A stretch of 51,010 nt of DNA from a virus. The notes beneath the pieces are model-generated. The model was not told the DNA's origin. It did not search any database and saw nothing but the letters and a program-made list of their open reading frames with translations. The DNA lies in IMG/VR virus record IMGVR_UViG_3300028590_000025, positions 1 through 51,010 of that record; one strand, written 5' to 3'. Of this stretch, positions 13,998 through 33,150 are shown piece after piece (positions within the stretch are counted from its first letter, which is position 1; each line of letters begins with the position of its first letter). The position numbers and the translations under genes were made by a program.

Positions 13998-14009
13998 CGG
14001 GCACTCCGT

Positions 14010-14795: not shown

Positions 14796-14804
14796 TCGCC
14801 GCCC

Positions 14805-15605
14805 CTAAGCGTTCTGGCTGATTTCAGAGAGCCAGATGACGTTCGACCCCTTAGGGTAAGTCGCCGCGAGCGTGCTCGACACCCGGATTTCATAAGTGTG
14901 CGAGTCGATGTTCCCCGGCAGATGCGAGAAATAGAACGGCGTGTTGACCTGCGAGTTTGGCTGGCAATGGTCGGTGAAGCTCTGCGTCAGGACGCTGTCG
15001 ACGTAGAGCCCTATGACGACGCCATCGTCGTCGGCCGAGCCAGCGCCAATGACACGACCGATTGAACCTTCGATGATCACGCGGCTGTCGGGGTAGATGC
15101 ACTGAAACGACTGCGACACGATCGCCGTGACGGCAGTTGCAGGCCCGGCCGCCGCAGCCAAGCGGGTCGGCGTTGACCTCTGCACCATGATGCCGCCCTG
15201 CACGGTCACGTTCGTCGTGCCGCCCGAGGTGACCAGCCGGAAGGAATCATCACTGGCCACGAAGACGATTTCAGTGATACGGCCCGCCACGATGGCGCCG
15301 GACGCCAGAACCGCGCCATCAGGATCACGGATGGCCTTGGCGCCGACGCCCGAGATGTTGATCGTCGCCGTGCCCGTATTGGTCGCTGCGGCCTCGAAGA
15401 TGCAGCGCAAGCCATCCGAATAGGCAGAAAAGCCATCAGGGACGGCGACAGCCGCCAGTATCGTGTTCACGCCAGTGACGGACAGCAACATGCCGCCATT
15501 GAGCGCCCAGAGCGCCGCAAGGCTGTCGCGCGTGCCGGTGGTCCAGTCAGCGCCGGATTTGCCGCCCGGATTAGTGGAAATGTCGCCAATATCGCGCGAG
15601 ACCAT
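14805..15605 (-). CDS. Tail fibre / tip-associated protein
   Basis: 266 residues, Gly/Ala/Thr-rich and beta-rich. The middle (L-R-C-I-F-E-A-A-A-T-N-T-G-T-A-T-I-N-I) is typical of short fibre modules that follow the tip protein. A C-terminal domain with R-V-I-I-E-G-S-I-G-R-V-I may be the adhesive part. Its ATG overlaps the last base of the upstream tip gene, so the two are translationally linked. Confidence 0.65.
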   Translation of the reverse strand: MVSRDIGDISTNPGGKSGADWTTGTRDSLAALWALNGGMLLSVTGVNTILAAVAVPDGFSAYSDGLRCIFEAAATNTGTATINISGVGAKAIRDPDGAVLASGAIVAGRITEIVFVASDDSFRLVTSGGTTNVTVQGGIMVQRSTPTRLAAAAGPATAVTAIVSQSFQCIYPDSRVIIEGSIGRVIGAGSADDDGVVIGLYVDSVLTQSFTDHCQPNSQVNTPFYFSHLPGNIDSHTYEIRVSSTLAATYPKGSNVIWLSEISQNA

Positions 15606-18217
15606 CAGGCAAACCTCTCTTGCAGTGTTGCGTAGATTTCTGGGGCTTCATCAACGAGGACCAGGCGAGCCCGCTCCTCCGCCATGCGCGTCACGTCCGA
15701 AACGATGCACCGATGGGTGAAGCGGCTGAGCGGCCCCAGCACGAAGTGAGCGCCTTCGAGTTCCTCGGACGAGAACGGCTGATCGACGCGGATCATCCAG
15801 CCCTCCGCCTGCGGCTCCGCCGCGACAATCGTCCGCATTTCGGTCCCGTTGGGCGTCGTCACGATGACGACGGACTGCTCACCAACCAGGAACAGGTTTG
15901 CCGGGTCGAATATGTTGTCGACGTCGAACACGCTCTCGGTGCTCTCGGTCGGCACTTCCTGGTCGTAGGAAAACGTGGTGCTGTCAAAGACCTTGCGAAT
16001 GCGGGCGCCCGTATGCGCGTCGTCGAGCAAGTCGGTGACGATGCTCACCAGGTCGCCGCGGTCACAGACGAGCCCTTCAATCGATGCCTCGACGATCCAC
16101 GCCCGCCGCCCTTGATAGTGGGCTTGCAGCATGTCGAAGAGCGCACGCCGCTGGATCAGGACGGGCTTGGTGATGCTGTCATAGGCCCGCACCTCATAGC
16201 CCGTGAAGTTGGTGTAGAACGGGTTGTTGACCTGAAGTTCGTCGTCGACATAGTCGCGCAGCTCGTTCTGGAATGTGCCCCTGATACCGATGGCCCGCTC
16301 GCCCATGACCCACTCGACCGAGATCGAAGCGTTGCGGGGCGAGAAGATCATGACCGGCAGATCAGAGGACCTGTCGCGGAACCAGTCGATGCCAAAGCCA
16401 TCTGAGAAGCGCGAGCGGGCGAATCCAGCCGTCGCGATCGCATCGAGAACCTCGCGTACAGACGAACCGGCAAAGACCCCGGACACCTCATAGCCACGCG
16501 CTGCGCATTCGGCTCGCCAGGCGACGAACTGCTCGTCAACGATCAGGTCGGTGCTGATGCCGTGATAGACGAGATAGTCGAACAGCACCTGGCGATAATG
16601 GGCCGCCGGGTTCTTGGTCGTGGTCAACGTGTTCCAGCCTGAGCCGTCCCAGTCGTGCACGTAGCGCGAAGCCTCGATCGTCACGTTGCGCACCGACTGA
16701 CCTTTGACCCGCAGCGCCATGAGCGCAGTGTTCGGACGCTGGCAGGGCTGGCGGTTGACGATCGTAGTAGCCATCGAAACCGACACGCGCCCAACGAACG
16801 GCCCCTGATCGATGGGGACCGACCATTTGGCACTGAAGAAGCCGCAGAACAGCGGATAGACAGCTCCGTCAATCGTGTAGTCCGAAGTCGATAGGCGGGC
16901 CTGGGCAAGCGCCGCGCCGCGCACGATCTCCCACTCGTATTCCTGCTTGGCGAAAACAGCCGGGTCGAGCGTCACACGGACACTGTAGCGCCGGCCCTGG
17001 ATATTGGCGGCATCGCGCAAGCCTGCGCCGGCAACGAACCACGAATGAGCATTCCACTGGTCGCCCGACACGCCCGTCGAAATATGCATGCTGGCAGGCG
17101 GAACGCGCTGGAAGAACTCGACCTGAATGGCCCCGCCGGCGCCGTCTTCGCCAAAAGCATTGTCCCAGCGAAGTCGGATTTCCTTGAGGGATGTCGAGAC
17201 GTCACGGCCAACGAAATGGATCTCGGGCAAGTTGAACCACGAGCCCTCGCTACCCTTCGGCCGGAAGCGCAGGCGGATCGGCAGCCGTACTGGCGTTCCA
17301 GCCTCGTCCGACCGGATGAAGCTGTCGAGCTGGAGGCGGATATTGATCTCCTCCATCTGCTCGTCATAGGCGGTCGTGAACCGTACGGCCTGCGGCTCCG
17401 AGTTGGCCGGCACCTCCTGGTCAACCAGTTCGGTACCCTCCAGCGTGAAAGTCGAAAGGGTTTCGCCGACGCTGGTCGCCTTGGTCACTTTCGTCACAAA
17501 GGTCGTGACCGGGCTCGCCTCCTGCCCGTCCCTGATCTGCGTCGTGATACTGGCGAAGTCACCGACCGGTGCGCCATCGACCTGAACCGCGTCGATGAGG
17601 TGATGGCCATCGAGGGCGAAGATGCGCTGGATCGTCTGAATGCCCTGGTCGAGCAGGTAGTGAGGATTGGCGATTTCGGGCGGGGCTATGCGGCGCGTAC
17701 CCACGACGAGCGGCAGATACGATTCCTTGGCCAACAAGTTGCTGCCGCTTTGCACATCGGCAAACTGGCGGGCGCGCTCGGCCGGCACCGAAGTGAGAGC
17801 GGGCGCAGCTGCCTGTTGCGCGGGGAACAGCGCATTGAGGGCAAGCTGCGCGCCGATGCCCAGTGCGCCGGCAACGAGATAGGCCAGCGGCGCGCCGATG
17901 AATGGCGTCAGGAACGGCGCAGCAACAGCAACCAGCACGGCGGCGGCGACCGCGAACAGGTCGCGCACGAAATCATGCGGGCGATAGCCGAAGAGCAAGG
18001 CATCATCGACGCGGGGTCTGACATGGCGCCACATATCGCGCGGCAGTTCGATCCACTCGACATCAGCACCTTTCGGAGCACGGACCCACGAGCGGAGGCC
18101 AACGTCGGAGGCATGGGTCTGGGCCGCGATTTCCTCGACGGTGAGGCCATAGGCCACCGTCAGCGTCTGGGGCGGAAGCCCGACGCCGTGCGCCTTGTGC
18201 AGGGTCTGAATGGTCAT
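15605..18217 (-). CDS. Host-specificity / tail tip protein (gpJ-like)
   Basis: 870 residues from ATG 18217, which overlaps the NlpC/P60 stop (ATGA); the open frame extends upstream to 18406 but that part lies over the previous gene. A hydrophobic segment near residues 88-125 (A-V-A-A-A-V-L-V-A-V-A-A-P) is typical of gpJ/TipJ homologues, followed by beta-rich central domains and I-N-I-R-L-Q-L-D. It comes after NlpC/P60 in lambda order (K then J). It forms the tip that contacts the receptor. Confidence 0.85.
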   Translation of the reverse strand: MTIQTLHKAHGVGLPPQTLTVAYGLTVEEIAAQTHASDVGLRSWVRAPKGADVEWIELPRDMWRHVRPRVDDALLFGYRPHDFVRDLFAVAAAVLVAVAAPFLTPFIGAPLAYLVAGALGIGAQLALNALFPAQQAAAPALTSVPAERARQFADVQSGSNLLAKESYLPLVVGTRRIAPPEIANPHYLLDQGIQTIQRIFALDGHHLIDAVQVDGAPVGDFASITTQIRDGQEASPVTTFVTKVTKATSVGETLSTFTLEGTELVDQEVPANSEPQAVRFTTAYDEQMEEINIRLQLDSFIRSDEAGTPVRLPIRLRFRPKGSEGSWFNLPEIHFVGRDVSTSLKEIRLRWDNAFGEDGAGGAIQVEFFQRVPPASMHISTGVSGDQWNAHSWFVAGAGLRDAANIQGRRYSVRVTLDPAVFAKQEYEWEIVRGAALAQARLSTSDYTIDGAVYPLFCGFFSAKWSVPIDQGPFVGRVSVSMATTIVNRQPCQRPNTALMALRVKGQSVRNVTIEASRYVHDWDGSGWNTLTTTKNPAAHYRQVLFDYLVYHGISTDLIVDEQFVAWRAECAARGYEVSGVFAGSSVREVLDAIATAGFARSRFSDGFGIDWFRDRSSDLPVMIFSPRNASISVEWVMGERAIGIRGTFQNELRDYVDDELQVNNPFYTNFTGYEVRAYDSITKPVLIQRRALFDMLQAHYQGRRAWIVEASIEGLVCDRGDLVSIVTDLLDDAHTGARIRKVFDSTTFSYDQEVPTESTESVFDVDNIFDPANLFLVGEQSVVIVTTPNGTEMRTIVAAEPQAEGWMIRVDQPFSSEELEGAHFVLGPLSRFTHRCIVSDVTRMAEERARLVLVDEAPEIYATLQERFA

Positions 18218-18600
18218 GACTTGCGAAGAAATCCAGTGATGGAGGCCCGGATCATCCGGTCGGAAAGAAGCTGATAGACACAGCCGTGAGACTTGGCGGA
18301 GTGCAGCACCCGGCCATTGTAGAAAACGCCGACATGCCCAGCTGAAAGGCGGCCGGCGCGCATCAGGACGAGGCAATGATCTTCCGGCGTCGGGATGGAC
18401 TGCCACCCCTGCCCTTCACTCGCCCAGGCCTGCACGCTGTCGCCGCCCGGCGGTCGGTCGGCGCGGTCAGCGAGTTCGATGCCGAGAACATGGCGGTACC
18501 AGAGTTCCACCACGCCCCAGCAGTCAGCACCGGGCCAAGCGCCCTCACCCGGAGCATGGGGCACTGCCAGAAGTCTGGGGATGACATCAGATGGCTGCAT
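18214..18600 (-). CDS. NlpC/P60 tail-tip peptidase (gpK-like)
   Basis: 128 residues from ATG 18600 (TTG 18612 possible). A-D-C-W-G-V-V-E-L-W-Y-R holds the nucleophile Cys and G-H-V-G-V-F-Y-N-G the His of NlpC/P60 cysteine peptidases. In siphoviruses this protein sits in the tail tip and helps open peptidoglycan on entry. The ribosome site is poor, and a terminator hairpin ends only 13 bases before the start, which is unusual. Confidence 0.85.
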   Translation of the reverse strand: MQPSDVIPRLLAVPHAPGEGAWPGADCWGVVELWYRHVLGIELADRADRPPGGDSVQAWASEGQGWQSIPTPEDHCLVLMRAGRLSAGHVGVFYNGRVLHSAKSHGCVYQLLSDRMIRASITGFLRKS

Positions 18601-18612
18601 TGCAGGGCCCAA

Positions 18613-18636
18613 AGAAAAACCCCGCCGAAGCGGGGT
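18613..18636 (-). terminator. Terminator just upstream of the NlpC/P60 gene
   Basis: On the minus strand ACCCCGC pairs with GCGGGGT across TTCG (7 bp plus a stable tetraloop), followed by TTTTTC. It closes the transcript of the small gene at 18664 and would cut tail-tip gene expression unless there is antitermination. Confidence 0.8.
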
Positions 18637-18663
18637 CGAGAGAGAAACGAATTGAGGTTTGGC

Positions 18664-18885
18664 TTAGTCGATGACCGGCTCCGCGCCCTCTGGTGGCGTC
18701 ATTTCACACCAGTGGGTAGGTTCAACGGCGGCAGTGTCGTCACATGTCAGCCAAACACCCATATCTTCACTCCATTCGGCCATCAGGTAGGGGTTACCCC
18801 CGGACCACATCCCGCCAGGAACATACGTCATTACTGGACGGTCTTTTGGCGCGCTGTCCATGGCGTGCCAATCGGTTTTGGTCAT
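18664..18885 (-). CDS. DUF551-like small protein
   Basis: 73 residues from ATG 18885, which has AAGGA at good spacing; the frame is open upstream to 18945 but lacks signals. D-W-H-A-M-D-S-A-P-K-D-R-P-V-M and a C-terminal P-T-H-W-C-E-M resemble the DUF551/phage P-K-D-G family. It is inserted between the gpL-like and gpK-like tail genes and is followed directly by a terminator, so it looks like an added cassette within the tail block. Confidence 0.6.
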   Translation of the reverse strand: MTKTDWHAMDSAPKDRPVMTYVPGGMWSGGNPYLMAEWSEDMGVWLTCDDTAAVEPTHWCEMTPPEGAEPVID

Positions 18886-18932
18886 TTCTGCATCCTTTTT
18901 GCTGCTGTGCATTCTAGCGCTTCTGCGCCGCA

Positions 18933-19412
18933 CTACCCAAGCCAAATCCCCGGAAAATCCTGCTTTGTCGTCTGCTTAAACGGCACCGGCTCAAGAAGCC
19001 CTGCCCGTGGCGCCAGTTCAAAACTGATGCTCTCCGACCGACCCGAAGCATTCGGGATCACCAACAGGTTCATTGTGTCGATCAGCGGCGGAGCATCGAG
19101 CGCATCGGCATTGATCAGCAGCAGGCGACAATTCACCCGCTGGCGAGCGCTATCCATGGCTCGGCTGAAGAACCGGTCAACATTTGAAATCGTCCCGCGG
19201 GCCCGAGTCTCCCCGTCGCGGGTTTCCGGCAGCTCGATCGTGATGGCAGCGCGCGTGTAGGTCTCGCCCTGCCATATGACGTTTTCGGTGTTGATCGCTG
19301 CCCGATGGACTAGAGACTTACCGTCCTCCTGGAATTCAAGAAGGATGATGTGCGGACTGACAAGAGGGCGCCGATTGAGCGTATGGCGCTGGTCGGTTGA
19401 TGGGGTTGGCAT
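18933..19412 (-). CDS. Minor tail protein, DUF1833 / gpL-like
   Basis: 159 residues from ATG 19412 with AGGAGG at ideal spacing. P-H-I-I-L-L-E-F, then E-T-Y-T-R-A-A-I-T-I-E-L-P and S-N-V-D-R-F-F-S-R match the DUF1833 type of tail protein. Its place after the gpM-like gene corresponds to lambda gpL, which joins the tape-measure region to the tip. The ATG overlaps the stop of the upstream gene. Confidence 0.75.
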   Translation of the reverse strand: MPTPSTDQRHTLNRRPLVSPHIILLEFQEDGKSLVHRAAINTENVIWQGETYTRAAITIELPETRDGETRARGTISNVDRFFSRAMDSARQRVNCRLLLINADALDAPPLIDTMNLLVIPNASGRSESISFELAPRAGLLEPVPFKQTTKQDFPGIWLG

Positions 19413-19762
19413 CAGACCTCCTGCAGCGAAACGTCGGCTTCCCAAAGGTCGGCGGTGAGGTGCCGCGGGCGAGGTTTGCCGGCGAACTGCACTTCGTAGG
19501 TCTCACCGGTCGTTGGGTGGGTCCAATTGAACTGCTTCACGCCGCGCACGAGGTCTACGGCGTAAAACTGGTTCAGCGCCTCCTTCTGCACATGCGTCAT
19601 CCGCAGCGTGTACGAGAAGTTGGAGAGGGACCGAGTGAACCGATTGCGCCGATCGGGCGCCCCTACCTCACCTCGATCCTCGACCCACGACGGAATGTCG
19701 CCCTCTTCGAACGTGCCGCCCATCGGCGGAGGCAGAGAGACGGGATAGTCGATATCGGCCAT
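19412..19762 (-). CDS. Minor tail protein (gpM-like)
   Basis: 116 residues. The body R-F-T-R-S-L-S-N-F-S-Y-T-L-R-M followed by F-N-W-T-H-P resembles small gpM-type minor tail proteins, and the location directly after the tape measure fits. It shares one base with the tape measure's final codon and overlaps the gpL-like start. Beta-rich; no catalytic residues. Confidence 0.65.
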   Translation of the reverse strand: MADIDYPVSLPPPMGGTFEEGDIPSWVEDRGEVGAPDRRNRFTRSLSNFSYTLRMTHVQKEALNQFYAVDLVRGVKQFNWTHPTTGETYEVQFAGKPRPRHLTADLWEADVSLQEV

Positions 19763-21459
19763 TACCGCCTCTGTGCCTGCTGTTGGAGGCCATAGCTGGC
19801 CATGCCGCGCCGGTAATCACCGCTCGCCAGAGCCTTGCCTGCCGATGCGGTCGACTTCTGGACCGTGCTCGGCTCGGAGGCCTGAACGATCTGCACAGTT
19901 TGGCCGGCCGCCTGGGTAAGCACCCTACCCTCGAGGTCCGGACCAAGCTCGATGCGCACGACCGATGGCGCGTTCTGGTTTGCCGCCAGCGCCATGGAAG
20001 GCCCATTTGGAATGACCTGAGAACCGCGCGGCAAATTGACAAGCTCGGGCCCCTGTTCGCCGACCCAGGCCAGCCCACCCGGGGCATAGTTGGTGCCGCT
20101 GGCGAAGCCGGGGAAAAAGCCGCCGCTGCTGCCCGTGATCGAGCTGGTTCCGCGAAGGCCGCTACTCATGCCGAAGCCGCTGAAGGCCCCCATAAGCAAG
20201 TCCCAAATGCCGTTGGAGGCCATATCAAGGGCTTTAGAGGTGAGCTTGTCGAGCGCATTCATTGCGGCGCCGCCGAGTGCTTCCCAACCGCTCTTGCCCT
20301 CCTTCAGTCCACTGCTGAAGCCTGACCAGAACCCCGACCATGCCGACTTCAGCGTGCCGCCCCAGGTCTCGGCAAGAGACTTGGAGGTATCATCTAGGGC
20401 TTTGACATTGTCGTTTGCCGCCTTCGCAGACCCGCCGAGTTCGTCCATTTCTTTTCGGGCATTTGCAATTTCCTGCGCCCGTCCGGAGATGGCGCCGAAC
20501 ATGTTGCCCATATAGTCGGTGGTATAGGCGTCGGTGTTGTTCTGGTTAAGATCGCCGCCGAGTTGTCCGAGCGAGCCCGCATAGGGGTTGGCTGCGCCCG
20601 CGAAGCTGACACGACCCAAGGTGGGGATCGCCACGCCGAATTGCCCCAGCCCTTCGTTGGCCTTGGCGATCAGGCCGTCGAGCAGTTCTGCAGCCTTGTT
20701 GATCGACCACTCGACGCCCTTCACCACGACGTTCGCAGTGGTGATCGTGGCGTCACCAATCGCCGCCGGTAGCCGGTTCCAGAGAGTGCCGATGGCACTG
20801 ACGCCAAAGGCGAATGGTGCGATGATACCGTTGCCGATGTTCTTGAGGATCGGGGCCATCTGGTCCCACACCCATTGCAGCCCGCCTACGATCGCATCCC
20901 ATACCGGCGAAAGGACATTTCCGATCTGCTCGGCGAGGAGCGACCATCCAGCCTGGACGACATCAAAAAAACCGACCTGAACTTCGGCAGTCTTGTTGAT
21001 CTCGTAGGTCAGGCCAGCAACCGCCGCAGCGGCCGCTCCAATCGCCAGTGTGACGGGCCCGAAAGTCGTTACAAGGCTTTTCCCTATACCCATCAGACTG
21101 TCGAGAGCTGGCTTCAGGCCGAACTGCAGCATCTGCGGCACCTGCTGCACCGCCACGATAAGCGGCGACATGCCTGACGCCAGAGACACGCCGATATCGT
21201 TCAACTGGTAGATCATGTTCGTGCGAACCTGCGTTCCCATACGCATGGCGGCATTGTTGGCTTGGATTGCAGCGGTGTGGGCGGCCGTCGCTGCCGTCGC
21301 CGCCTTCTGACCAGCCGCTTCTACCTGAGAAGCGCCGGCAAGCTGCCGGGCAGCCGCTGAGGCCTGTCCTGCGGCGCCGGTCAACTGGTGAAGGGAAACA
21401 GTGCCCTTCTCGACCTGAGTGGAATCCACGGCCAAGCCGAGGCGAGCAACATCGACCAT
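19762..21459 (-). CDS. Tail tape measure protein
   Basis: 565 residues. N-terminal part is a long Ala/Gln-rich coiled region (about 20-85), followed by M-I-Y-Q-L-N-D-I-G-V-S-L-A-S-G and hydrophobic segments near 130-150 typical of tape measure proteins. A Ser/Gly-rich region and a conserved C-terminal G-E-Q-G-P-E-L-V-N-L-P-R-G-S-Q-V-I-P motif follow. At this length the tail would be short for a siphovirus (by the usual about 0.15 nm per residue, near 85 nm; an estimate). It follows the frameshifted chaperone pair as in lambda. Confidence 0.88.
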   Translation of the reverse strand: MVDVARLGLAVDSTQVEKGTVSLHQLTGAAGQASAAARQLAGASQVEAAGQKAATAATAAHTAAIQANNAAMRMGTQVRTNMIYQLNDIGVSLASGMSPLIVAVQQVPQMLQFGLKPALDSLMGIGKSLVTTFGPVTLAIGAAAAAVAGLTYEINKTAEVQVGFFDVVQAGWSLLAEQIGNVLSPVWDAIVGGLQWVWDQMAPILKNIGNGIIAPFAFGVSAIGTLWNRLPAAIGDATITTANVVVKGVEWSINKAAELLDGLIAKANEGLGQFGVAIPTLGRVSFAGAANPYAGSLGQLGGDLNQNNTDAYTTDYMGNMFGAISGRAQEIANARKEMDELGGSAKAANDNVKALDDTSKSLAETWGGTLKSAWSGFWSGFSSGLKEGKSGWEALGGAAMNALDKLTSKALDMASNGIWDLLMGAFSGFGMSSGLRGTSSITGSSGGFFPGFASGTNYAPGGLAWVGEQGPELVNLPRGSQVIPNGPSMALAANQNAPSVVRIELGPDLEGRVLTQAAGQTVQIVQASEPSTVQKSTASAGKALASGDYRRGMASYGLQQQAQRR

Positions 21460-21468
21460 GGTGATACC

Positions 21469-21786
21469 TCAAACAAAAATGGCGTCGAACAGTTCGGCCG
21501 TCATGGGCCGTTCGGAGACGATGTGCGGGGATTGGCTGGTCTGCTGCTCTCGCTTCGCCGCTTCACGGCAGGCATCGAGATAGGCAACGTCCATGGTCCG
21601 AAGGATGCGCCACTCCTGCGAGCGGACGCGCGTGGCGGTCATTTGAGCCCAGTGGGCCATGTCGGCCCATCCAAGTGGCAGATAACCGCCCATGCCTTCC
21701 TGACGGCCTTGGTGAAGCTCGCAGAACCAGTGCCAGAGGTGTTCCGCCGCTGGGGACAGCGACAGATCGAATGTCGGGGTATTCAC
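21469..21786 (-). CDS. Tail assembly chaperone, T-like part (reached by -1 frameshift)
   Basis: 105 residues counted from GTG 21786, but the frame is open back to the slippery site at 21837-21831, so the true product is probably the G-T fusion of about 250 residues. The domain reads E-H-L-W-H-W-F-C-E-L, then R-L-x-W-A-D-M-A-H-W and later M-D-V-A-Y-L-D-A-C, the usual layout of the second chaperone domain. It binds the tape measure during tail assembly and is absent from the virion in known systems. No ribosome site supports independent initiation. Confidence 0.8.
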   Translation of the reverse strand: MNTPTFDLSLSPAAEHLWHWFCELHQGRQEGMGGYLPLGWADMAHWAQMTATRVRSQEWRILRTMDVAYLDACREAAKREQQTSQSPHIVSERPMTAELFDAIFV

Positions 21787-21804
21787 CGCGGATCGGGCGG
21801 CCTG

Positions 21805-21837
21805 CGCCAGTTCCTCGGCTAGGCCTTCGTAAAATTT
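21805..21837 (-). promoter_or_regulatory. Programmed -1 ribosomal frameshift element
   Basis: On the minus strand, heptamer A-AAT-TTT (21837-21831) is a perfect X-XXY-YYZ slippery site in the zero frame, four codons before the stop of the first gene. Five bases later a stem can form: GGCCT with AGGCC and inner GCC with GGC. A -1 slip reads TAC-GAA-GGC-CTA-GCC onward with no stop into the T-like domain. This matches the lambda G/GT mechanism. Confidence 0.82.
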
Positions 21838-22220
21838 GCGATGTCGCGAGCAGCCCCCACCACCTGGGCATAGATCCAGCCTTCTTTCTTAAAGATGGCT
21901 TTGATGGTTTTCGGGTCGTTGCCGGGCACCTTATTTTCGTAGGTATTGGGCTTGCCGTTGGCGTCGAGTCCCCAGTCCCACGACGCGACATACGAGACGG
22001 CCATGTCGAGCTCGTTTTCCTCCACCATATCGGCGCCGATCAGTTTCCGGCGCTGCTGCCGTGACAGAAGGTCGTCGGTCTGCTCGCGCACCACGGCCAT
22101 GGCGGCATCAGATCCAGCCGACCGCACCATGATGGTGATGCCGACCGGCTTGCCCGTCTTGGGATGCTCGACATCGAGCTTGAACAGTTCCTCGTTCTGA
22201 ACGAGACCAGAGATTTCCAT
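21819..22220 (-). CDS. Tail assembly chaperone, G-like
   Basis: 133 residues. E-L-F-K-L-D-V-E-H-P-K-T-G-K-P-V-G-I-T-I-M-V and later S-Y-V-A-S-W-D-W are typical of tail assembly chaperones placed between the tail tube and tape measure. Translation mostly ends at 21819; the slippery heptamer lets a fraction shift by -1 to make the longer fusion. The ratio of the two forms is critical for tail assembly in lambda. Confidence 0.8.
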   Translation of the reverse strand: MEISGLVQNEELFKLDVEHPKTGKPVGITIMVRSAGSDAAMAVVREQTDDLLSRQQRRKLIGADMVEENELDMAVSYVASWDWGLDANGKPNTYENKVPGNDPKTIKAIFKKEGWIYAQVVGAARDIANFTKA

Positions 22221-22226
22221 GCCTGA

Positions 22227-22955
22227 TTATCCCAGCGGCGCTACGCGCACGGTGTTCGTGTTGACTTCGATGGTGGCCTGGAGCTGGCGCACATTGTTCG
22301 GGCCGCCGAAGGCTTCCGTGGCGGCCGTAACGAGGCCAATGAAATAGCGCTCGGATGGGGTCGGCTCGGTGGTCGCGGTGTGGGTGCCGCTCTGTGTGGA
22401 CGAGGTGCTGATGACCGTGCCGCCCTTGGTTGCCGCGACGGTGAAGGTGCCGGCGGAAAGCACTTCCTTGACGTAGTAGGTCGTGCCGGCTGTGAGGCCC
22501 GTTGGCAGCGCGCCGGTCGTGGTGAACACCACAGCCACATCAACAGCCAGGCCATGCGCAGCCCAAGAGATAACACCGGGCGATGCGACCGAAATGGTGA
22601 CGGTGGCGCTCTTGGGAGCCGGTGCGTCGTTCAGCAAGACCTTGAACGGATAGTTCTGGTTCGTGGCCTCGGCAGCGATCAGAGCGAGCTGTCCGGCATC
22701 GCTGGCGACAACGGCGAAGTTGTCTTGACGGGACGGCGCATTGCGGGTGCCCTTCTGCTTCACGTCACGTCCGCGATCGATAAGCGGCGTGGTGATCAGC
22801 GCGGCGGCATCACCAAGCGCGCCCGCCTCCATCCACGATTTCACTTCGGTCCAAGACACCGCAGCGAAGTCGGAAACATCAACATCGGTGTCGGGCAGCT
22901 CGATGGCGGCGCCGATATAGTATTTGCAGCCCGAGACAGGGTAGAGGGTCGCCAT
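22227..22955 (-). CDS. Major tail tube protein with inserted beta domain
   Basis: 242 residues from ATG 22955, preceded by TAGGAGG. The N-terminal half (S-W-T-E-V-K-S-W-M-E-A-G) and the C-terminal half (E-R-Y-F-I-G-L-V-T-A-A) resemble siphovirus tube proteins. Between them, about residues 118-195, lies a separate beta domain with T-V-T-I-S-V-A-S-P-G-V-I-S-W and T-A-G-T-T-Y-Y-V-K, a module also seen in other phage surface proteins, probably displayed on the tail surface. Confidence 0.82.
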   Translation of the reverse strand: MATLYPVSGCKYYIGAAIELPDTDVDVSDFAAVSWTEVKSWMEAGALGDAAALITTPLIDRGRDVKQKGTRNAPSRQDNFAVVASDAGQLALIAAEATNQNYPFKVLLNDAPAPKSATVTISVASPGVISWAAHGLAVDVAVVFTTTGALPTGLTAGTTYYVKEVLSAGTFTVAATKGGTVISTSSTQSGTHTATTEPTPSERYFIGLVTAATEAFGGPNNVRQLQATIEVNTNTVRVAPLG

Positions 22956-22978
22956 TACGGCCTCCTATGTTTGAGAAA

Positions 22979-23404
22979 TCAGGCCCAGCATTCCCAGGGC
23001 ACAAGGATGGGCACGAGAATGCCCGGAGATGTCGTCTCGATCAGTGCGGATCCGACGTCCGGCGCCGAGGCGATGCGGACAGACAAGCCGATGGCGTGAT
23101 GAAGTCGCAGGTCGGCCGGGAAGTGCTCCGCGACCGCCCCTGCGATATCCGTGATGCGGGGCCCCTTATTCAGGGCGTCGCGTACATTGACCTGCAGGAA
23201 GCCGATGCGCTGATGCGGGCCGTCGCTATCAATCAACACGCGGTTGGCAGCGTTCGGGACGAACCGGGCCTCGATGTAGCGATTGTCCGCCGGCTTGCTG
23301 AAGTTGTTGTTCGGCCAAGCCACGGGATGGACCGGAGACAGCACCAGGGCGGCGAGCCGCGCCAGCAGCACCTGTTCGATAGCACCTTCCACGGTATTGG
23401 CCAT
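22979..23404 (-). CDS. Tail terminator / completion protein (DUF4128-like)
   Basis: 141 residues from ATG 23404 with GAGGT upstream. E-G-A-I-E-Q-V-L-L-A-R-L-A-A-L and Y-I-E-A-R-F-V-P-N, then G-F-L-Q-V-N-V-R, match the DUF4128/gpU-type terminator fold. It lies directly upstream of the tube gene, as expected. The frame is open to 23449, but that would overlap the plus-strand gene at 23424. Confidence 0.78.
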   Translation of the reverse strand: MANTVEGAIEQVLLARLAALVLSPVHPVAWPNNNFSKPADNRYIEARFVPNAANRVLIDSDGPHQRIGFLQVNVRDALNKGPRITDIAGAVAEHFPADLRLHHAIGLSVRIASAPDVGSALIETTSPGILVPILVPWECWA

Positions 23405-23423
23405 TGTGCGATACCTCTGGCCA

Positions 23424-23627
23424 ATGGCCGATAAACCGCTCAACGACAATGCCGTTCACGACCGCTTGCACGCGGCCTTAGAGGCATTGGGCAATGAGCC
23501 GGGTGAAACTATTCACGGCAACACCACGCTCGAGACGGCGCGGCGATCACTCCGATTGATGCAGCTTGGGCATCTCACGGCCTCAGAGAGGGCCGCTGGC
23601 AGGATTAAAGACCCAACCGAGACCTGA
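23424..23627 (+). CDS. Putative small helical protein (67 aa) antisense to the late operon
   Basis: ATG 23424 to 23627, filling a 200-base gap between two minus-strand connector/tail genes. The product is helical and charged (L-H-A-A-L-E-A-L-G, S-E-R-A-A-G-R-I). No strong ribosome site is seen. It resembles in style the plus-strand gene at 33149. It may be a moron; the alternative is that the gap simply carries a promoter. Confidence 0.45.
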   Translation: MADKPLNDNAVHDRLHAALEALGNEPGETIHGNTTLETARRSLRLMQLGHLTASERAAGRIKDPTET

Positions 23628-24018
23628 CCTCTGCCGCTTTGGTGGCGACGATCTGCTCCCATCGCTGAGCGACCATGGAGACCCACGGCCTGCCCGGTCG
23701 CCCATTTGCACCGTAGTGGACATGGGCCGCATAGTTGGCCGTGTAGCCCAGATAGAGCACATCGCCTGCTTCGGCGCCGGCTATGACCAGCACGATTTCG
23801 GCAGAAGGGTCTGTCCCGGCCGTGCCATCACCCTCTCGGGTAAGCAAGGGCATTTCGGTCGGGGACGCACGAAGGCTGTTCTTTAGGAAGCCAATATCGA
23901 TCGGCACCAGCGAATTGAGTTCGGAAACAAGCTCTTGCGCCGCTTCCTGAAACAGCAGATCGAACGCACCTTCCACCTTGCGTGCCCATTCGCCCACCTG
24001 GGCCTCGAAAGTGGTCAT
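23605..24018 (-). CDS. Tail completion protein (HK97 gp10-like)
   Basis: 137 residues. V-P-I-D-I-G-F-L-K-N-S-L-R-A and the later Y-T-A-N-Y-A-A-H-V-H-Y-G are typical of HK97 gp10-like/gpZ-type proteins acting at the head-tail joint. Its start overlaps the stop of the Mu-F-like gene (ATGA). It overlaps the 3-prime end of the convergent small gene by 23 bases. Confidence 0.78.
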   Translation of the reverse strand: MTTFEAQVGEWARKVEGAFDLLFQEAAQELVSELNSLVPIDIGFLKNSLRASPTEMPLLTREGDGTAGTDPSAEIVLVIAGAEAGDVLYLGYTANYAAHVHYGANGRPGRPWVSMVAQRWEQIVATKAAEVRSRLGL

Positions 24019-25055
24019 GCCGCGCGCCGTGCCAAGAACTGGGCGGTGTAGTCGATGCGATATTCCACTGCGCAGCGGCAGCCAGACGTTTCGCTGATCG
24101 GCGCCTCAGGATCGCCGGGAAAGCGAAGAGTGGCGCCTGACGGGCTCTGGAACGACTGATAGAAACCCACCTCTTCATTGTTCAGCGCCCGATGGGTGTG
24201 CCTCACACGATTATCGCCGGCAGAGCGCCAGCGCTTCGTGATGAACATCGGGTCCACCTTGCCAGACAGAATGGCCTGCTTCATCGCATCGTCTCGCGAC
24301 TTGCTCAGGGCGGTCATGGTTTCAGTCCGGCTCAGCATCTCGCCGCGGAGAGCCAGCAGGCGGTCGGCGTACCTTCCAGCGATGCGATTGACCATCTCCT
24401 TATCTGGCGCCTTACCCTCTGCGATTGCCTTGCGGATAGCGGCATCGAAGCGCTTGTCTCTGCGTTCTCTCGTCAGGTAATGCCTCAACTGATCGGGCTC
24501 GCCGCTGAGCAGTTCCTGTCGCGCGGCGGAGACAAACCGCTCCTGAGGCGCGGTGAGTCCGATCAACCCGCCTGTCCGATTGCCGGTAGCGCGCGAGGTG
24601 CGGCCGACGATGTCGAGCGCCGTTGTGCGTGGATTGTTACCTTGGGCAAGCCCTTCGGTCAGCGCCGTGCGGATGGCTTCGCGCTGGTCGTCCACGATGC
24701 GCGTCACAAGCTGGGCGCTGTGGTCCCGAAGCCATGCTTCGGCCTCCGGATTGCGAACCCCGAAGCGGAAAGCGATGCGGCTGCCATTGGGATCGCGCAG
24801 GACAAGGCCAGAGGCCATGTCGATACCGCCGGCATTGTAGGCATTGGCGATCTCGATTTCGAGCCGCCCGAAAGCCTCGGCATCAATCTGCAATACCTCG
24901 ATAGCGCCCGCCACGTCACCGCGCTCCAGACGCTCGACAAAGCGTTTCAGCACCACCTGGCTCTTGATCTCAGAGATGGCACCAAGAAAGGCGTCACGGA
25001 CGCGTGGCTCCCAGGCGTCCAGCAACTGTTCGAATGTGGAGCGGTTGGTGGGCAT
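24015..25055 (-). CDS. Mu F-like minor head protein
   Basis: 346 residues from ATG 25055, overlapping the previous stop; the open frame to 25133 lies over that gene. A helical N-terminal region is followed by M-L-S-R-T-E-T-M and K-R-W-R-S-A-G-D-N-R-V-R-H-T-H-R-A-L, then a terminal C-R-C motif (S-G-C-R-C-A-V). This is the Mu gpF/SPP1 gp7 head-morphogenesis signature. It is placed unusually late in the gene order, after the connector genes instead of next to the portal. Confidence 0.87.
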   Translation of the reverse strand: MPTNRSTFEQLLDAWEPRVRDAFLGAISEIKSQVVLKRFVERLERGDVAGAIEVLQIDAEAFGRLEIEIANAYNAGGIDMASGLVLRDPNGSRIAFRFGVRNPEAEAWLRDHSAQLVTRIVDDQREAIRTALTEGLAQGNNPRTTALDIVGRTSRATGNRTGGLIGLTAPQERFVSAARQELLSGEPDQLRHYLTRERRDKRFDAAIRKAIAEGKAPDKEMVNRIAGRYADRLLALRGEMLSRTETMTALSKSRDDAMKQAILSGKVDPMFITKRWRSAGDNRVRHTHRALNNEEVGFYQSFQSPSGATLRFPGDPEAPISETSGCRCAVEYRIDYTAQFLARRAA

Positions 25056-25480
25056 CAGATCGCAAGGTCCAGATCGTACAGCACTGCGACACCAGCCGGA
25101 GCCAATGGCCTCACGGCCATGATCTCTTCCCAAGCATGGGTGGCATCATCGGCTTCATCCACGAACGTCAGGGCCTCGCCCAAGAGGATCGTGTCGTCAT
25201 CGGTCGGAGCAATGCCCGCAGCGCCCGAGATCGTCACGGTACGCTTGGTCATACCGATCAGCGTGCCGTTGATGTCCCGCAGTTCCTTGTCGGACTGCAG
25301 GGCAATGACGGGGAAGTAGGTGATGACCGGATCGCCGGGAATCCATGGTGTCGATGGGTCTGGCGTGCCGGGAACGACGCGCCGGATCGTGGCCGGATAG
25401 CCGTTGGGCTGGGAGACGTCGCCAATGGAGGCGAGAGCGTCTTGAACTTCTGCGGCAATGCCTGTCCAGTCTTCAGCCAT
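25055..25480 (-). CDS. Head-tail connector-type protein
   Basis: 141 residues, beta-rich, with W-I-P-G-D-P-V-I-T-Y-F-P-V and a D-D-D-T-I-L-L-G motif. Its size and position, between the DnaT-like adaptor and the tail completion genes, indicate a stopper or head-closure role. No catalytic motif. It overlaps the next start by one base. Confidence 0.65.
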   Translation of the reverse strand: MAEDWTGIAAEVQDALASIGDVSQPNGYPATIRRVVPGTPDPSTPWIPGDPVITYFPVIALQSDKELRDINGTLIGMTKRTVTISGAAGIAPTDDDTILLGEALTFVDEADDATHAWEEIMAVRPLAPAGVAVLYDLDLAI

Positions 25481-25481
25481 T

Positions 25482-25577
25482 TCAGCCTACCGGGAAAAAT
25501 AGCATTGCAGAGAGGATGAAGCCCACGACCCCGCCAACGACGAAGCCGATGAGTTGATCGAAGACCCAAGCGCGCAT
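25482..25577 (-). CDS. Tiny membrane protein (31 aa)
   Basis: ATG 25577 follows the upstream stop with no gap (TAAATG) and the stop lies one base before the next gene, so it fills the space exactly. The product reads M-R-A-W-V-F-D-Q-L-I-G-F-V-V-G-G then a Gly/Val/Phe/Leu-rich stretch: a single membrane helix with a GxxG-type core. Such a micro-protein in the connector block would easily be missed. The ribosome site is weak, so coupling to the upstream gene is likely. Confidence 0.6.
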   Translation of the reverse strand: MRAWVFDQLIGFVVGGVVGFILSAMLFFPVG

Positions 25578-26057
25578 TTACACCACCAGAATGGCGGGGA
25601 ACCCGCCTACGGGCGTCAGGAACGGCGCCAAGAGGCCCTCGACAGCAGATAGCACCGGGATCATTGAACCCGGCTCGCTGGCGTCGCCAATGACGTCCCA
25701 CTCGATCTTGTCGACCTTCGTCAGAACCTTCGTGGTGCCAGGCGTGTAGGTCACCGAGAGCGATCCTGGTGCCTTGGCGTCTGCCAGAGCGGCCACATAG
25801 CTCGCCTTGACCACGGCATCAGGGATCACATCATCGCCAATCGGCTGCCCATATGCGCAAGCCCCGGTCCGAGGCCACGCCCGCTCCTGAGAAAAGCCAC
25901 CGGTGGGGATGCCGGAGAACCGAGCGCCATAGGTGCCGTCGATGTAGTTCGAGCCGCGCTCACGAAGTACCGCGATAGACGGCGGATTGTCGGGGAGAGC
26001 AAACCCATTTGCGGAGAGCCAGCTATTGAAGCCGTCGTCGGTGCCGTAGCCAGCCAT
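25578..26057 (-). CDS. DnaT-like head-tail adaptor protein
   Basis: 159 residues. Y-G-T-D-D-G-F-N-S-W-L-S-A-N-G, then R-E-R-G-S-N-Y-I-D, then R-A-W-P-R-T-G match the phage family that databases call DnaT-like ssDNA-binding, which by position is the adaptor binding below the portal. Middle: I-P-D-A-V-V-K-A-S-Y. DNA binding should not be assumed from the family name. Confidence 0.78.
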   Translation of the reverse strand: MAGYGTDDGFNSWLSANGFALPDNPPSIAVLRERGSNYIDGTYGARFSGIPTGGFSQERAWPRTGACAYGQPIGDDVIPDAVVKASYVAALADAKAPGSLSVTYTPGTTKVLTKVDKIEWDVIGDASEPGSMIPVLSAVEGLLAPFLTPVGGFPAILVV

Positions 26058-26074
26058 TGCCGTCTCCTACCCGA

Positions 26075-26386
26075 TCAGGACGCCAGCTTGGCGTCGATCA
26101 GTTCCTTGAGCTTGTCCGTTGGGATGTTGCGAGGATGCTCGATCCCGAGTTCCTTGGCTTGGGCCTTGAGGTCTTCGCGGTCGGAATTGGTCGCCCCGCC
26201 AGCTTTCCCATCTCCGTCATGATCGAGCGCGTCATCGACGGTGAGGAAAGGTAACGCCTTGACGCGCTCGACGTAATCGTCGGCCACGTCGATAGAGAGT
26301 GTTGCCTTGGGTTCGATAAACACCAGGCCGGCCACAGAATGCACCCCCTGTAGGGCGCGGGAGTTATTCGTGATGCTCGCCTTCAT
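26075..26386 (-). CDS. Small capsid-region protein with HeH/LEM-like tail
   Basis: 103 residues. An N-terminal beta part is followed by D-D-A-L-D-H-D-G-D-G-K, an EF-hand/dockerin-like Asp loop (about residues 52-62), and a C-terminal D-L-K-A-Q-A-K-E-L-G-I followed by I-P-T-D-K-L-K-E-L-I-D, a HeH/LEM-like helix-extended loop-helix module seen in phage capsid-region proteins. It follows the major capsid gene and its terminator. Role unknown. Confidence 0.65.
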   Translation of the reverse strand: MKASITNNSRALQGVHSVAGLVFIEPKATLSIDVADDYVERVKALPFLTVDDALDHDGDGKAGGATNSDREDLKAQAKELGIEHPRNIPTDKLKELIDAKLAS

Positions 26387-26411
26387 GGGGAGACTCCTTT
26401 CAGGTCCAGAT

Positions 26412-26438
26412 ACAAAAGGGGGCCGCTGGCGACCCCCT
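26412..26438 (-). terminator. Terminator after the major capsid gene
   Basis: On the minus strand GGGGG-T-CGC pairs with GCG-G-CCCCC (one T-G pair) around a very short loop, followed by TTTT. It would raise capsid mRNA stability and lower read-through into connector genes. Confidence 0.7.
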
Positions 26439-26455
26439 CATAATCAGGACTGCGA

Positions 26456-27418
26456 TCAGGACGGTGGAGCAGTAACCTCGTCGGCATAGGCCGCTGCCTT
26501 GGGCAGGCGCCATTCGGTGCCGCCGGTACGGGCGATGATGCCAGTTTCAAAGCCCATGATGGACTTCTGGCGCGGCTGCAGCACGGTACGGGGCATCGGA
26601 AGATGGAAGCGAACGACTTCCTCGTCACGGCGATAAGCGACCATGCGACCGCCGCCGTCCTGGGAGGCAGTGGCGAGTTCGCGCACCGGAATGATGTTGA
26701 GGGGCTGATTGGTCTCTGCCGTGTAAATGTTGTTGCGGCGGAGGTATTCCAGAACCGTGATGAACCCGTCGCCAGCGCCGAGGCGCTTGGTGGCGATGAC
26801 ACGGAAGGCATCGGGCGGCAGAGCGATGGTGTCTGCCCACTCGACTTCATTGGTCTGGGTGCGAACGCGGCTCAGGACCTCGTTCACGTCAGTCAGGAGC
26901 TGGTCGACCGTCTTGGCCGCCCAGAAGGTGCCCGGGGTGGCAACATCAGCGCGCGGCACGTCCGGGCTGTTGGCGAAGCCGGTCCAGTTCTTCTCGGCAG
27001 AGCCGATGAAGGCGATGGAGTTCAGGAGGCGCTCAACCTTGTCGGTCGCGCTCATTGCTTTGGTGGCATTGAGGTTGAGGCCGTAAAGCGCTGCCTGGTT
27101 GATCTCCTCGATGTTCCACTCCCAACCGGAGCCGATCATCGCGAAGTCATGGCTCTGCATGTCCTTCGTCGCAGCATTGAACGGCATATCAGTGCCGGCG
27201 CCGGACAGGAACTTGGCTTCGCCGGCAGTGTCCACGGTAAAGAACGTGGTGCCGATCGCCCATGCGTTGCCTTCGGTAACCACAGGGACGACCTGGGCAT
27301 AGTTATAGGTTGGATACCGCTTCTGATAGATGCGGGTCTCGATGTTGCGACCCTGCGCGATGACGAAGGGCATCGCTGCCTGCGCATCGGCAAAGGGCTG
27401 GCGGATCATCTGGTTCAT
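26456..27418 (-). CDS. Major capsid protein (DUF2184 type)
   Basis: 320 residues. The DUF2184 capsid family is recognised from the N-terminal F-V-I-A-Q-G-R-N-I-E-T-R-I-Y-Q, F-A-M-I-G-S-G-W-E-W, and the C-terminal M-G-F-E-T-G-I-I-A-R-T-G-G. DUF2184 proteins adopt the HK97 fold. There is no long N-terminal delta domain, consistent with a separate scaffold encoded in the DUF2213 gene. The distinct terminator after it suggests high expression. Confidence 0.9.
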   Translation of the reverse strand: MNQMIRQPFADAQAAMPFVIAQGRNIETRIYQKRYPTYNYAQVVPVVTEGNAWAIGTTFFTVDTAGEAKFLSGAGTDMPFNAATKDMQSHDFAMIGSGWEWNIEEINQAALYGLNLNATKAMSATDKVERLLNSIAFIGSAEKNWTGFANSPDVPRADVATPGTFWAAKTVDQLLTDVNEVLSRVRTQTNEVEWADTIALPPDAFRVIATKRLGAGDGFITVLEYLRRNNIYTAETNQPLNIIPVRELATASQDGGGRMVAYRRDEEVVRFHLPMPRTVLQPRQKSIMGFETGIIARTGGTEWRLPKAAAYADEVTAPPS

Positions 27419-27438
27419 GATTGCTGGTCCTTTCGCGA

Positions 27439-28191
27439 TCAGCGGAGCTTCAGGGAGACTTCAACGATGTCGCCATCGGCCCCCGAAGTGTCGAACGTGG
27501 CATCGGGGATGCGGATATGCGTCGCCGTCGAGGTGTAGCGACCATCGGACGGGTCCCAATACACATCGCCGCCGTCGACAACGGTATCGCCGGCCGTGAC
27601 GTACATCTGGCCCATCGTCATGAAGGCGCCGGTGAAATACTGGGGGTATTCGTCCGCGCCTTGGCCGGATGCGGCGGGCGGGACGGCAGGGGTGAGCACG
27701 GCCAGGCCGAGGAAGTCGGCATTGGCGGTATAGGTGACGTCGATATAGAACGTGTCACCTGCCGTCATGGTGCCGGCATTCGAGATCGTGAAGCTTCCGA
27801 TGCCAGGAATAGACGTGTTGGCAGAGGCGACCACGCCATCACCGACCACGATACCGTCTGGGTCATAGACGATATAGGGCGCGGTTGCGCTGGTCGCGAT
27901 CAGCACGGCCTTGTAGCGGCCGTGCTTGGCGCCTGCCGAGATGGTCGGGGTATCGGTGATAACGCCCGTGCCAACGTTGCCCGCAGCCTCAGAACCGGCA
28001 CCAGTGGCCGCGAACGTGCCGCCGGCAACGACGCCGTGATCGCCAGAGCCGCGAAATGCGGGCTGGCCGAAGGCAATACCCGCAGCCGATTCGACGGTGC
28101 GGGAAACCTTGTTGCACTTCTCCTCATTGGCGATCTGGCCGGGAAGGCCCTTCGCCGGAGCATTGCCGTAAGTGGTCTGATAGGGTGCCAT
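27439..28191 (-). CDS. Capsid cement / decoration protein (Gp24-like)
   Basis: 250 residues, Gly/Ala/Thr-rich and beta-rich. A-P-Y-Q-T-T-Y-G-N-A-P-A-K-G-L-P-G-Q-I-A is the standard opening of structural cement proteins placed just before the DUF2184 capsid gene. The middle (about 85-170) is an inserted or extended beta region that may be surface-exposed. It stabilises the capsid in related phages. Confidence 0.8.
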   Translation of the reverse strand: MAPYQTTYGNAPAKGLPGQIANEEKCNKVSRTVESAAGIAFGQPAFRGSGDHGVVAGGTFAATGAGSEAAGNVGTGVITDTPTISAGAKHGRYKAVLIATSATAPYIVYDPDGIVVGDGVVASANTSIPGIGSFTISNAGTMTAGDTFYIDVTYTANADFLGLAVLTPAVPPAASGQGADEYPQYFTGAFMTMGQMYVTAGDTVVDGGDVYWDPSDGRYTSTATHIRIPDATFDTSGADGDIVEVSLKLR

Positions 28192-28206
28192 GGTGGCTGC
28201 TCCTGG

Positions 28207-28764
28207 TTACGCCGTGGCCTTGACGCCACCGGACTGAAGGTCCTGCAGCATCGCAGCGCGAGCGTCGTTGACGGGCTTGAGATCGTCATTGGTGGGCGTG
28301 AGCCCATCGGTGACGGCATCGCGGAAGGGGTCCTTATCGCCGGCCTTCTTCACGGCATCCTCGACGAGGATTTCGAAGCGGGCGTCGATATAGGCCTCGG
28401 GCTTGTCCTTGGCGGCATCACCGACAACGGCAACCACCACGGCCTTCTTGATATCGGCATCAGACAGACCGTCGGTCTTGACGTCCTTGGCGAGCACCTT
28501 GGCCTTGCCGATCAGGTCGGCGCGCGATGCGACGAGCTTGTCGATCGCAGCGGCATCGAGAACCTTGCCCTTGAGGGCGTCGATCTCGGCATCCTTGGCG
28601 GCAAGAGACTTATCCTTATCGGCAATGGCAGCGATGTGGGCGGTCTCGGTTTCCGAGGCCTTCTTGGCTGCATCAGCAATGCGCTTCTGCAGGGTATCGA
28701 TTACGACAGCACCCTGATCGGTCGTCTCGACCGGGATGCCATCGACGATGACCGTCTTGTTCAT
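28207..28764 (-). CDS. Nested in-frame scaffold protein (internal start)
   Basis: 185 residues beginning at Met198 of the protease gene (M-N-K-T-V-I-V-D-G-I-P). AAAAGGA lies seven bases upstream of this ATG, an unusually good internal ribosome site inside a coding region, exactly at the protease-scaffold border. Lambda gpC/Nu3 uses the same device. Translation from the internal start is inferred. Confidence 0.65.
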   Translation of the reverse strand: MNKTVIVDGIPVETTDQGAVVIDTLQKRIADAAKKASETETAHIAAIADKDKSLAAKDAEIDALKGKVLDAAAIDKLVASRADLIGKAKVLAKDVKTDGLSDADIKKAVVVAVVGDAAKDKPEAYIDARFEILVEDAVKKAGDKDPFRDAVTDGLTPTNDDLKPVNDARAAMLQDLQSGGVKATA

Positions 28765-29355
28765 GGGTTTGTCCTTTTCAGGGGTTGCGTCAGTGATCGG
28801 GGCAGCGCCCCAGGAATACGCACCGTCACCGATGCGAAGCTGGTCCCCGCCGCGTGCCTTCTCGACAATCGCGACGTGGTTCATTTTGAAGTCGGACATG
28901 ATGGCGTCGTACGCCTCGCCCGTGGGGCTGATGCCGTCGCCCAAGGTCACATTGGCGTCGTAGCCCATGGACAGTTCGACAGCGGCGCCGGATTCGACCG
29001 TCTGGATGCCTGTGGCATCACGGAGCATCATAGGGACCCGGACGAACTCACCGTCGCGCATCACCTCATCGCCAACCTCACCAACGGCAAGGTCTTTCCA
29101 GGTATCGGCCGTGACCTTGACCGAGGGGTGACCAATGGTGATGGGCACGCCGGCATATGAGCCGATGGCGTCCTTCTTGAAGACCTCACTCTCGGGCCTG
29201 TAGACGCGCACCACGGCCTTGTCGGTGATGCCAAGCTCTGACCCAAGGTAGGCTTGCACATTGCCGCCACGAGCCACGCGCGCCGATACTACGGCATAGC
29301 CATCCGCTGTCCGACGCAGCGCGCCGTCCATCGTCATCCGATCGATGAATTGCAT
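28207..29355 (-). CDS. DUF2213 prohead protease with C-terminal scaffold
   Basis: 382 residues. The N-terminal 180 residues are the DUF2213 protease-like domain: I-T-I-G-H-P-S (His near 86), A-A-V-E-L-S-M-G-Y (Ser near 129) and M-N-H-V-A-I-V-E-K-A-R-G. The rest is a charged helical region typical of scaffolds (A-K-D-A-E-I-D-A-L-K-G-K). A second in-frame ATG at 28764 with its own ribosome site would yield the scaffold alone. It lies between the portal and the cement protein. Confidence 0.85.
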   Translation of the reverse strand: MQFIDRMTMDGALRRTADGYAVVSARVARGGNVQAYLGSELGITDKAVVRVYRPESEVFKKDAIGSYAGVPITIGHPSVKVTADTWKDLAVGEVGDEVMRDGEFVRVPMMLRDATGIQTVESGAAVELSMGYDANVTLGDGISPTGEAYDAIMSDFKMNHVAIVEKARGGDQLRIGDGAYSWGAAPITDATPEKDKPMNKTVIVDGIPVETTDQGAVVIDTLQKRIADAAKKASETETAHIAAIADKDKSLAAKDAEIDALKGKVLDAAAIDKLVASRADLIGKAKVLAKDVKTDGLSDADIKKAVVVAVVGDAAKDKPEAYIDARFEILVEDAVKKAGDKDPFRDAVTDGLTPTNDDLKPVNDARAAMLQDLQSGGVKATA

Positions 29356-29358
29356 GGA

Positions 29359-32765: not shown

Positions 32766-33150
32766 CCTCGGTCAATCCATCCAACATTTTGGGAGTGATG
32801 GTCACCACCTGGATGGTGCCACTGATCTTGCGGTTCTCTGTACCCAGCCCAAACAGCTTGGCCTTGCCCATGGTGGCCGATACGGCTGCGCTAGTCTGCT
32901 TCTCACCAATTGCGAGGGTGCGGGCTTCCTCGAGCTCGGCTGCGAGGCTTTCGACGGTCACCTCGACCTTCTTGGCCACCCTGCCCTGCAGTTCTTCTAC
33001 CCGAGCAGCGACCATAACATTTGATAACAAGCGCGATGCGCTCGGCTGGTTCGGCTTATACCCGGCATGTGCATACGCCTCGGTCGCGCTCTTGCCCTTT
33101 GCTAGCGCTTGGGCGAATGCTTCGTGACGAGGATTGGGGAGAACGGGCAT
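32659..33150 (-). CDS. terS: Terminase small subunit
   Basis: 163 residues. R-H-E-A-F-A-Q-A-L-A-K-G-K-S-A-T-E-A-Y-A-H-A-G-Y is the N-terminal HTH of small terminases, followed by helices (E-S-L-A-A-E-L-E-E-A-R) for oligomerisation. It recognises the packaging site. Its start codon shares bases with that of a divergent plus-strand gene. The 107-base overlap with terL is longer than usual. Confidence 0.87.
   Translation of the reverse strand: MPVLPNPRHEAFAQALAKGKSATEAYAHAGYKPNQPSASRLLSNVMVAARVEELQGRVAKKVEVTVESLAAELEEARTLAIGEKQTSAAVSATMGKAKLFGLGTENRKISGTIQVVTITPKMLDGLTEDELASLEAAYPVLAKLGLIGSPGSPTAEEAGAGEP

Follow-up and report, generated by a model that had tools for sequence, protein, structure and literature searches.

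Two overlapping reading frames lie between the tail tube and tape measure genes of the window (the whole 51,010-nucleotide stretch of viral DNA analysed here), and they raise the question of how the second frame, T, comes to be translated. As judged from the sequence, its junction with the first frame, G, is very probably a site of programmed −1 ribosomal frameshifting, of the well-known kind seen in lambda G/GT. Through ribosomes slipping back near the end of G, the phage probably makes two versions of its tail chaperone.

Gene layout and protein identity

The tail tube (major tail protein) gene at 22227–22955 (phrog_158 major tail protein, E 1.4e-8) is directly upstream of G, and the tape measure gene at 19762–21459 (PF06791 TMP_2, E 5.7e-11; phrog_8892, E 1.1e-37) is directly downstream of T; all features of the window given here are on the minus strand. 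G, the short zero-frame tail assembly chaperone of 133 amino acids, is an ORF at 21819–22220 that closes with a TAG at 21821–21819, its 3′ end reading ...GAC ATC GCA AAT TTT ACG AAG GCC TAG. The open stretch of the T frame begins about 22 codons ahead of this stop. From the slip onwards, the T extension (21469–21831) runs in the −1 frame for 120 codons, starting with TAC GAA GGC and ending with the TGA at 21471–21469; its translation is YEGLAEELAQAARSAVN...DAIFV, with 21469 as the last base. The first-pass annotation had described this frame as open into a second domain, and the fusion as about 250 residues long with the junction N-F-Y-E-G-L. The translation agrees on each count: the 120 codons to 21469 hold the PF23812 domain, and 130 + 120 residues give a fusion of 250 amino acids with that junction.

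The identity of both frames as tail assembly chaperones, proposed from the letters, is borne out by family matches. G matches phrog_313 “Tail assembly chaperone” (E 3.4e-9) in PHROGs, and a Pfam search of G gave no match. T is a member of PF23812, Phage_TAC_18 (E 9.3e-12; 45.4 bits against a curated cut-off of 27), and among its several PHROGs matches phrog_20700 and phrog_3817 carry the name “tail chaperonin”. Neither protein was matched in NCBIfam, the Rfam search gave no match and the tRNA search found none. The predicted structure of T is all helical with a mean pLDDT of 77.7, and that of G has a mean pLDDT of 68.7. A Foldseek comparison of both models with the PDB returned nothing at E ≤0.001 and searching PDB sequences with profiles yielded no useful match, so that structure leaves the chaperone naming neither stronger nor weaker. 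The T protein found no match in genome contigs, and no close DNA relative of window positions 14000–32800 was found among named phages.

In the manner of lambda G/GT gene pairs, G and T overlap but occupy different frames, with the tube gene on one side and the tape measure gene on the other. G also contains, close to its end, an in-frame slippery site from which an open −1 frame continues into T.

The slippery heptamer

The slippery site is the heptamer A_AAT_TTT at 21831–21837, in the G frame. It had been read at 21837–21831 and four codons before the stop, and both its letters and its place were confirmed: TTT is the fourth codon before the TAG, with 9 nt between them. The heptamer fits X_XXY_YYZ in register with the codons, and AAATTTT occurs in a single copy in the whole 51 kb. 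In-frame X_XXY_YYZ heptamers number 7 per 5014 codons in 15 late genes, two of them of the efficient class. At this late-gene rate, an efficient-class heptamer falls within the 22-codon overlap with P ~0.009, and A_AAT_TTT is therefore more than chance would supply. When the last 22 codons of G were recoded synonymously at random, AAATTTT arose in 1.1% of cases and an in-frame heptamer of any kind in 4.9%.

The available text of PMC4066793 places H_HH.U_UU.Y heptamers, the class into which A_AA.U_UU.U falls, among the most efficient in E. coli, and reports measurements in E. coli by which the U_UU.U and U_UU.C tetramers are shift-prone given an added pseudoknot stimulator. A literature search on AAATTTT or AAAUUUU with frameshifting returned no phage tail chaperone with this heptamer among the matches listed; the accessible part of PMC10299305 has AAATTTT in Wolbachia, where it is found at two paired hydrolase genes rather than at a chaperone gene. 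The newness of the window frameshift itself is low, as it would be an additional member of the G/GT kind whose heptamer has not been met in this literature for tail chaperones.

In the proposed mechanism, the majority of ribosomes would terminate at the TAG of G and yield the 133-amino acid chaperone. With AAT in the P site and TTT in the A site, some ribosomes would slip back one base on A_AAU_UUU. The tRNA-Phe would re-pair on UUU and reading would continue into T, resulting in the 250-amino acid G-T fusion. By analogy with lambda, G would bind the tape measure and the T part would recruit the tube subunit.

A separate in-frame run, T_TTT_TTT, is present in the tape measure gene at window position 20971, where a −1 slip would meet a TGA at once.

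Conservation across the junction

A comparison of homologues, which the first-pass annotation had suggested as a check on the heptamer, found it identical in 3/3 close relatives (L002–L004), virus contigs with 86–97% protein identity that retain the codons GCA AAT TTT ACG and the TAG; the sample is n=3, two of which are identical over most of the region. Nucleotide divergence between the window and L004 shows no significant drop around the site (15/160 sites vs 69/567 elsewhere, p 0.40).

T could also be a separate gene, translated from the GTG at 21784–21786 by coupling or re-initiation past the G stop, although this is very unlikely. The GTG is the first ATG, GTG or TTG in the T frame after the slip and begins a 105-amino acid ORF. 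It has no Shine–Dalgarno (SD) match, so that the earlier statement that the second frame lacks a ribosome site of its own is true for GTG 21786; this proves little alone, because the ATG of G has no SD match of at least 4 nt either. Annotation likewise gives T, if at all, as its own gene: a joined G-T gene is annotated in 0/18 regions (L008–L015, L207–L216), where T is missing or a separate hypothetical protein, often shortened. Against a separate T stands the conservation of its residues upstream of the GTG. L4 and L8, which precede the first start codon, do not vary across an alignment of 21 rows that reaches down to 26% identity, and in the stretch from the G stop to the GTG, L004 has two differences, neither of which changes a T-frame residue. 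Among 56 distinct junctions of the Rhizobium type, the T frame has no ATG, GTG or TTG before codon 22 after the pivot, placing the first possible start at least 22 codons into conserved T, with L9, C10, L12, D15, Q16 and G19 among the invariant residues. Pairwise differences in T codons 7–16 of these junctions number 1747, 1913 and 4649 at positions 1, 2 and 3, a count that takes in one misregistered row (L080). Codons that are conserved apart from mostly third-position changes, with no start until at least codon 22, argue against a separate T start. The reading of the site as a programmed −1 frameshift, first made from the letters, is supported by the heptamer, by the homologues and by a −1 frame conserved as protein.

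That RNA polymerase makes the slip in place of the ribosome (transcriptional slippage) is highly improbable. Both directions of shift occur in the wider family, and the available text of the survey PMC3711429 takes both directions among orthologs as a sign of such slippage; however, the same text cites runs of >7 A or >8 T, and the longest run at the slip site is four T. A sequencing error or decayed gene, a suspicion that a virus record from a collection of the IMG/VR type invites, can be practically dismissed, as the identical break is seen in contigs from three other metagenomes and the −1 junction in other loci of the curated set. On sequence grounds, there is high confidence that the −1 frameshift of the window is ordinary and well formed, and of the G/GT kind.

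Possible stimulators in the window

The first-pass annotation had also proposed a stem-loop five bases downstream of the heptamer. Folding weakly suggests that a hairpin may form at 21799–21825 (−13.4 kcal/mol), including the G stop codon. Its start at 5 nt downstream of the slip stood; the controls lent it little. An equal hairpin at a spacer of 5–9 is found at 1.55% of late-region positions, and z against dinucleotide shuffles is −0.55 to 0.06 for 50–120 nt and −1.45 for 40 nt. L004 has lost one inner pair with no compensating change, and no covariation supporting the hairpin was found among the close relatives. A role for the hairpin as a strong stimulator found no support, the hairpin being no better than dinucleotide shuffles. 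A search for an SD-like stimulator upstream of the slip found no match.

Survey of the slip site among relatives

The G/T layout with a −1 step is present in 141/141 curated loci, for which a readable −1 junction was the entry condition; they form 28 clusters at 60% T identity. Fourteen loci were left out: the window itself (L001), repeats of other loci (L005–L007, L087–L089), L154 (same phage as L010), L009 (+1), L145 (cut off), L080 (one-base difference near the junction), L086 and L101 (in neither of which an overlapping −1 junction was found) and L104. The last has a match below the family cut-off and a long unrelated frame, which we take to resemble MutS. The slip position was derived from the T match position in 112/141 loci and by hand from the visible motif or junction in 29/141, so that motif counts are cleanest in the former.

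The commonest zero-frame heptamers in these 141 loci are CTCTTTT (55), GGATTTT (40), GTCTTTT (11), AAAAAAC (10) and AAATTTT (9). Rarer are TTTTTTC and CCCTTTC (3 each) and ATCTTTT, TTCTTTT and GGGAAAC (2 each), with TTTTTTT, GGGAAAG, CAATTTT and TTTTTTG found once each. AAATTTT occurs in 6 clusters (the window clade, L096, L105, L108, L128 in 1/6 members, and L153) and, outside the 141-locus set, in L200–L202 and L204, making seven further lineages besides the window clade. A full XXXYYYZ is present at the pivot in 30/141 loci and missing in 111/141; a few of the latter (e.g., L146, L148, L149, L150) have T_TTT_TTG or T_TTT_TTC one codon on. Among ten further named phages, one is +1, seven are −1 with a clear in-frame heptamer and PaMx28 is in neither group; no clear heptamer was found in Serratia phage Serbin.

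The whole heptamer is not constant among Phe-pivot relatives; the T_TTY Phe codon is, and the T_TTT tetramer within the window heptamer is what they retain. At the pivot of 55 distinct Rhizobium-type loci, T_TTT is found 52 times and T_TTC 3 times, as against T_TTT at 1/433 other Phe codons of the same genes. A weaker control is given by the CRP-6 type, where 23/23 pivots are T_TTT vs 30% elsewhere.

Two large groups are mostly without XXXYYYZ. The Rhizobium type, one of the two, carries a strong 10-bp hairpin. Its arms, GCTGATCGAC/GTCGATCAGC, begin 7 nt after T_TTT and span the G stop codon (L018, L021, L047 and other Rhizobium-type loci). Over 36 rows, 90.6% of cells pair, and sliding the partner lowers pairing to ≤52%. 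Three pairs change on both sides vs a mean of 0.6 in shuffles, and covariation is modest at 0.056 vs 0.047 in shuffles. RNAalifold on the Rhizobium-type loci did not return the full hairpin, and a Rhizobium subgroup (L016, L017, L029, L030, L033) has a different fold.

Locus L086 was seen to carry a PF23812 domain at ~1456–1818 on the plus strand, seemingly with its own ATG overlapping the upstream stop and with no recognisable G.

Direction of the shift

In one clade the direction differs: among loci L155–L207 (at position ~2000 in most), relatives with −1 A_AAT_TTT and with +1 AAC_TTT_CGN both occur, the site lying at the same Phe codon.

A search with the T of Limnohabitans phage DC31 (L009) gave 52 loci, 46 of which need +1, as DC31 does; five of the other six need −1 (L200–L202, L204, L206) and one is cut off. 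The +1 set comprises 48 loci, with DC31 and Curvibacter phage P26059A (L207). Their sites are AAC TTT CGA (31), AAC TTT CGC (7), AAT TTT CGA (6), AAC TTT CGT (2) and AAC TTT TGC (2), with TTT_CGN at 46/48. A T-frame stop just ahead of the pivot in 39/48 means that there the +1 shift must come at or after the pivot, and no start codon is found for at least 18 codons past it. These comparisons suggest that the slip can go forward too at the same codon. UUU_CGN is a plausible +1 site, as +1 shifting on UUU_CGU is reported for a eukaryotic virus in the available part of PMC3498833.

The closest contrast is between L200, with GTA ACA AAT TTT ACG (−1), and P26059A, with GTA ACT AAC TTT CGA (+1). Their fused proteins share 154/253 identities (61%) in a gap-free alignment and are sisters (100/100) in a tree of 29 fused proteins. 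On that tree the direction must have changed at least twice, and a single clade of all +1 rows is rejected (p-AU 0.017), although the constrained clade was named only after the trees had been seen and the tree has long branches. With T alone the +1 rows group together (91/75), so it is the longer alignment of fused proteins that decides how many switches there were, though not whether there were any.

In this chaperone family the frameshift is likely to turn on one conserved Phe codon as its pivot and to be able to flip direction there, A_AAT_TTT (−1) being the state of the window and AAC_TTT_CGN (+1) that of close relatives, with direction having changed two or more times. The constant part of the signal would then be the re-pairing of tRNA-Phe alone, and not the full heptamer. 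Between the pivot and T the two states differ by a net 2 nt, so that the fusion protein would stay colinear despite the flip. The flip is the surprising part, as the survey PMC3711429, in its available text, reports direction to be conserved among orthologs in ribosomal frameshifting. Among the literature matches listed, none describes a direction switch in tail chaperones by title or abstract, which is not proof of absence.

Known systems and implications

The lambda G/GT slippery site is G_GGA_AAG, unlike the A_AAT_TTT of the window. The likeness to lambda gpG/gpGT is one of arrangement: the available text of PMC5009743 describes overlapping frames in the tail gene block, a −1 shift near the end of G, and G-T linking the tape measure and tube proteins. 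The Phage_TAC_18 (PF23812) chaperones of alphaproteobacterial prophages are a family to which the window T belongs by score, and among the alphaproteobacterial genomes sampled here 13 readable junctions carry A_AAA_AAC (10), G_GGA_AAC (2) and A_AAT_TTT (1, L096). The types of Roseobacter phage CRP-6 and of Rhizobium phages N28_2 and phiLM21 share with the window a Phe pivot on T_TTT, usually with the stop 9 nt later, but are mostly without XXXYYYZ, having G_GAT_TTT or C_TCT_TTT instead. DC31 and P26059A have homologous G and T and the same Phe codon pivot; they differ in shifting +1 on TTT_CGN, akin to the UUU_CGU site in the accessible part of PMC3498833.

One use of these results is that two tail genes, which gene calling splits or shortens, can be annotated correctly. 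The relatives also form a natural series that runs through loss of the P-site half of the heptamer, presence of a hairpin where that half is gone, and a flip of direction at one codon. This series allows testing of which part of a bacterial frameshift signal is needed, and of how one signal becomes another while the fusion protein persists.

Elsewhere in the window, the portal gene at 29359–31233 carries a C-terminal Acb1 (anti-CBASS) domain (PF23474, residues 479–619, E 1.9e-41). Stretches similar to this portal-Acb1 lie under portal annotations in several named phages, e.g., phiPSA1, Ssp-JY39 and RHph_TM3_3_3, so the fusion is not special to the window phage.
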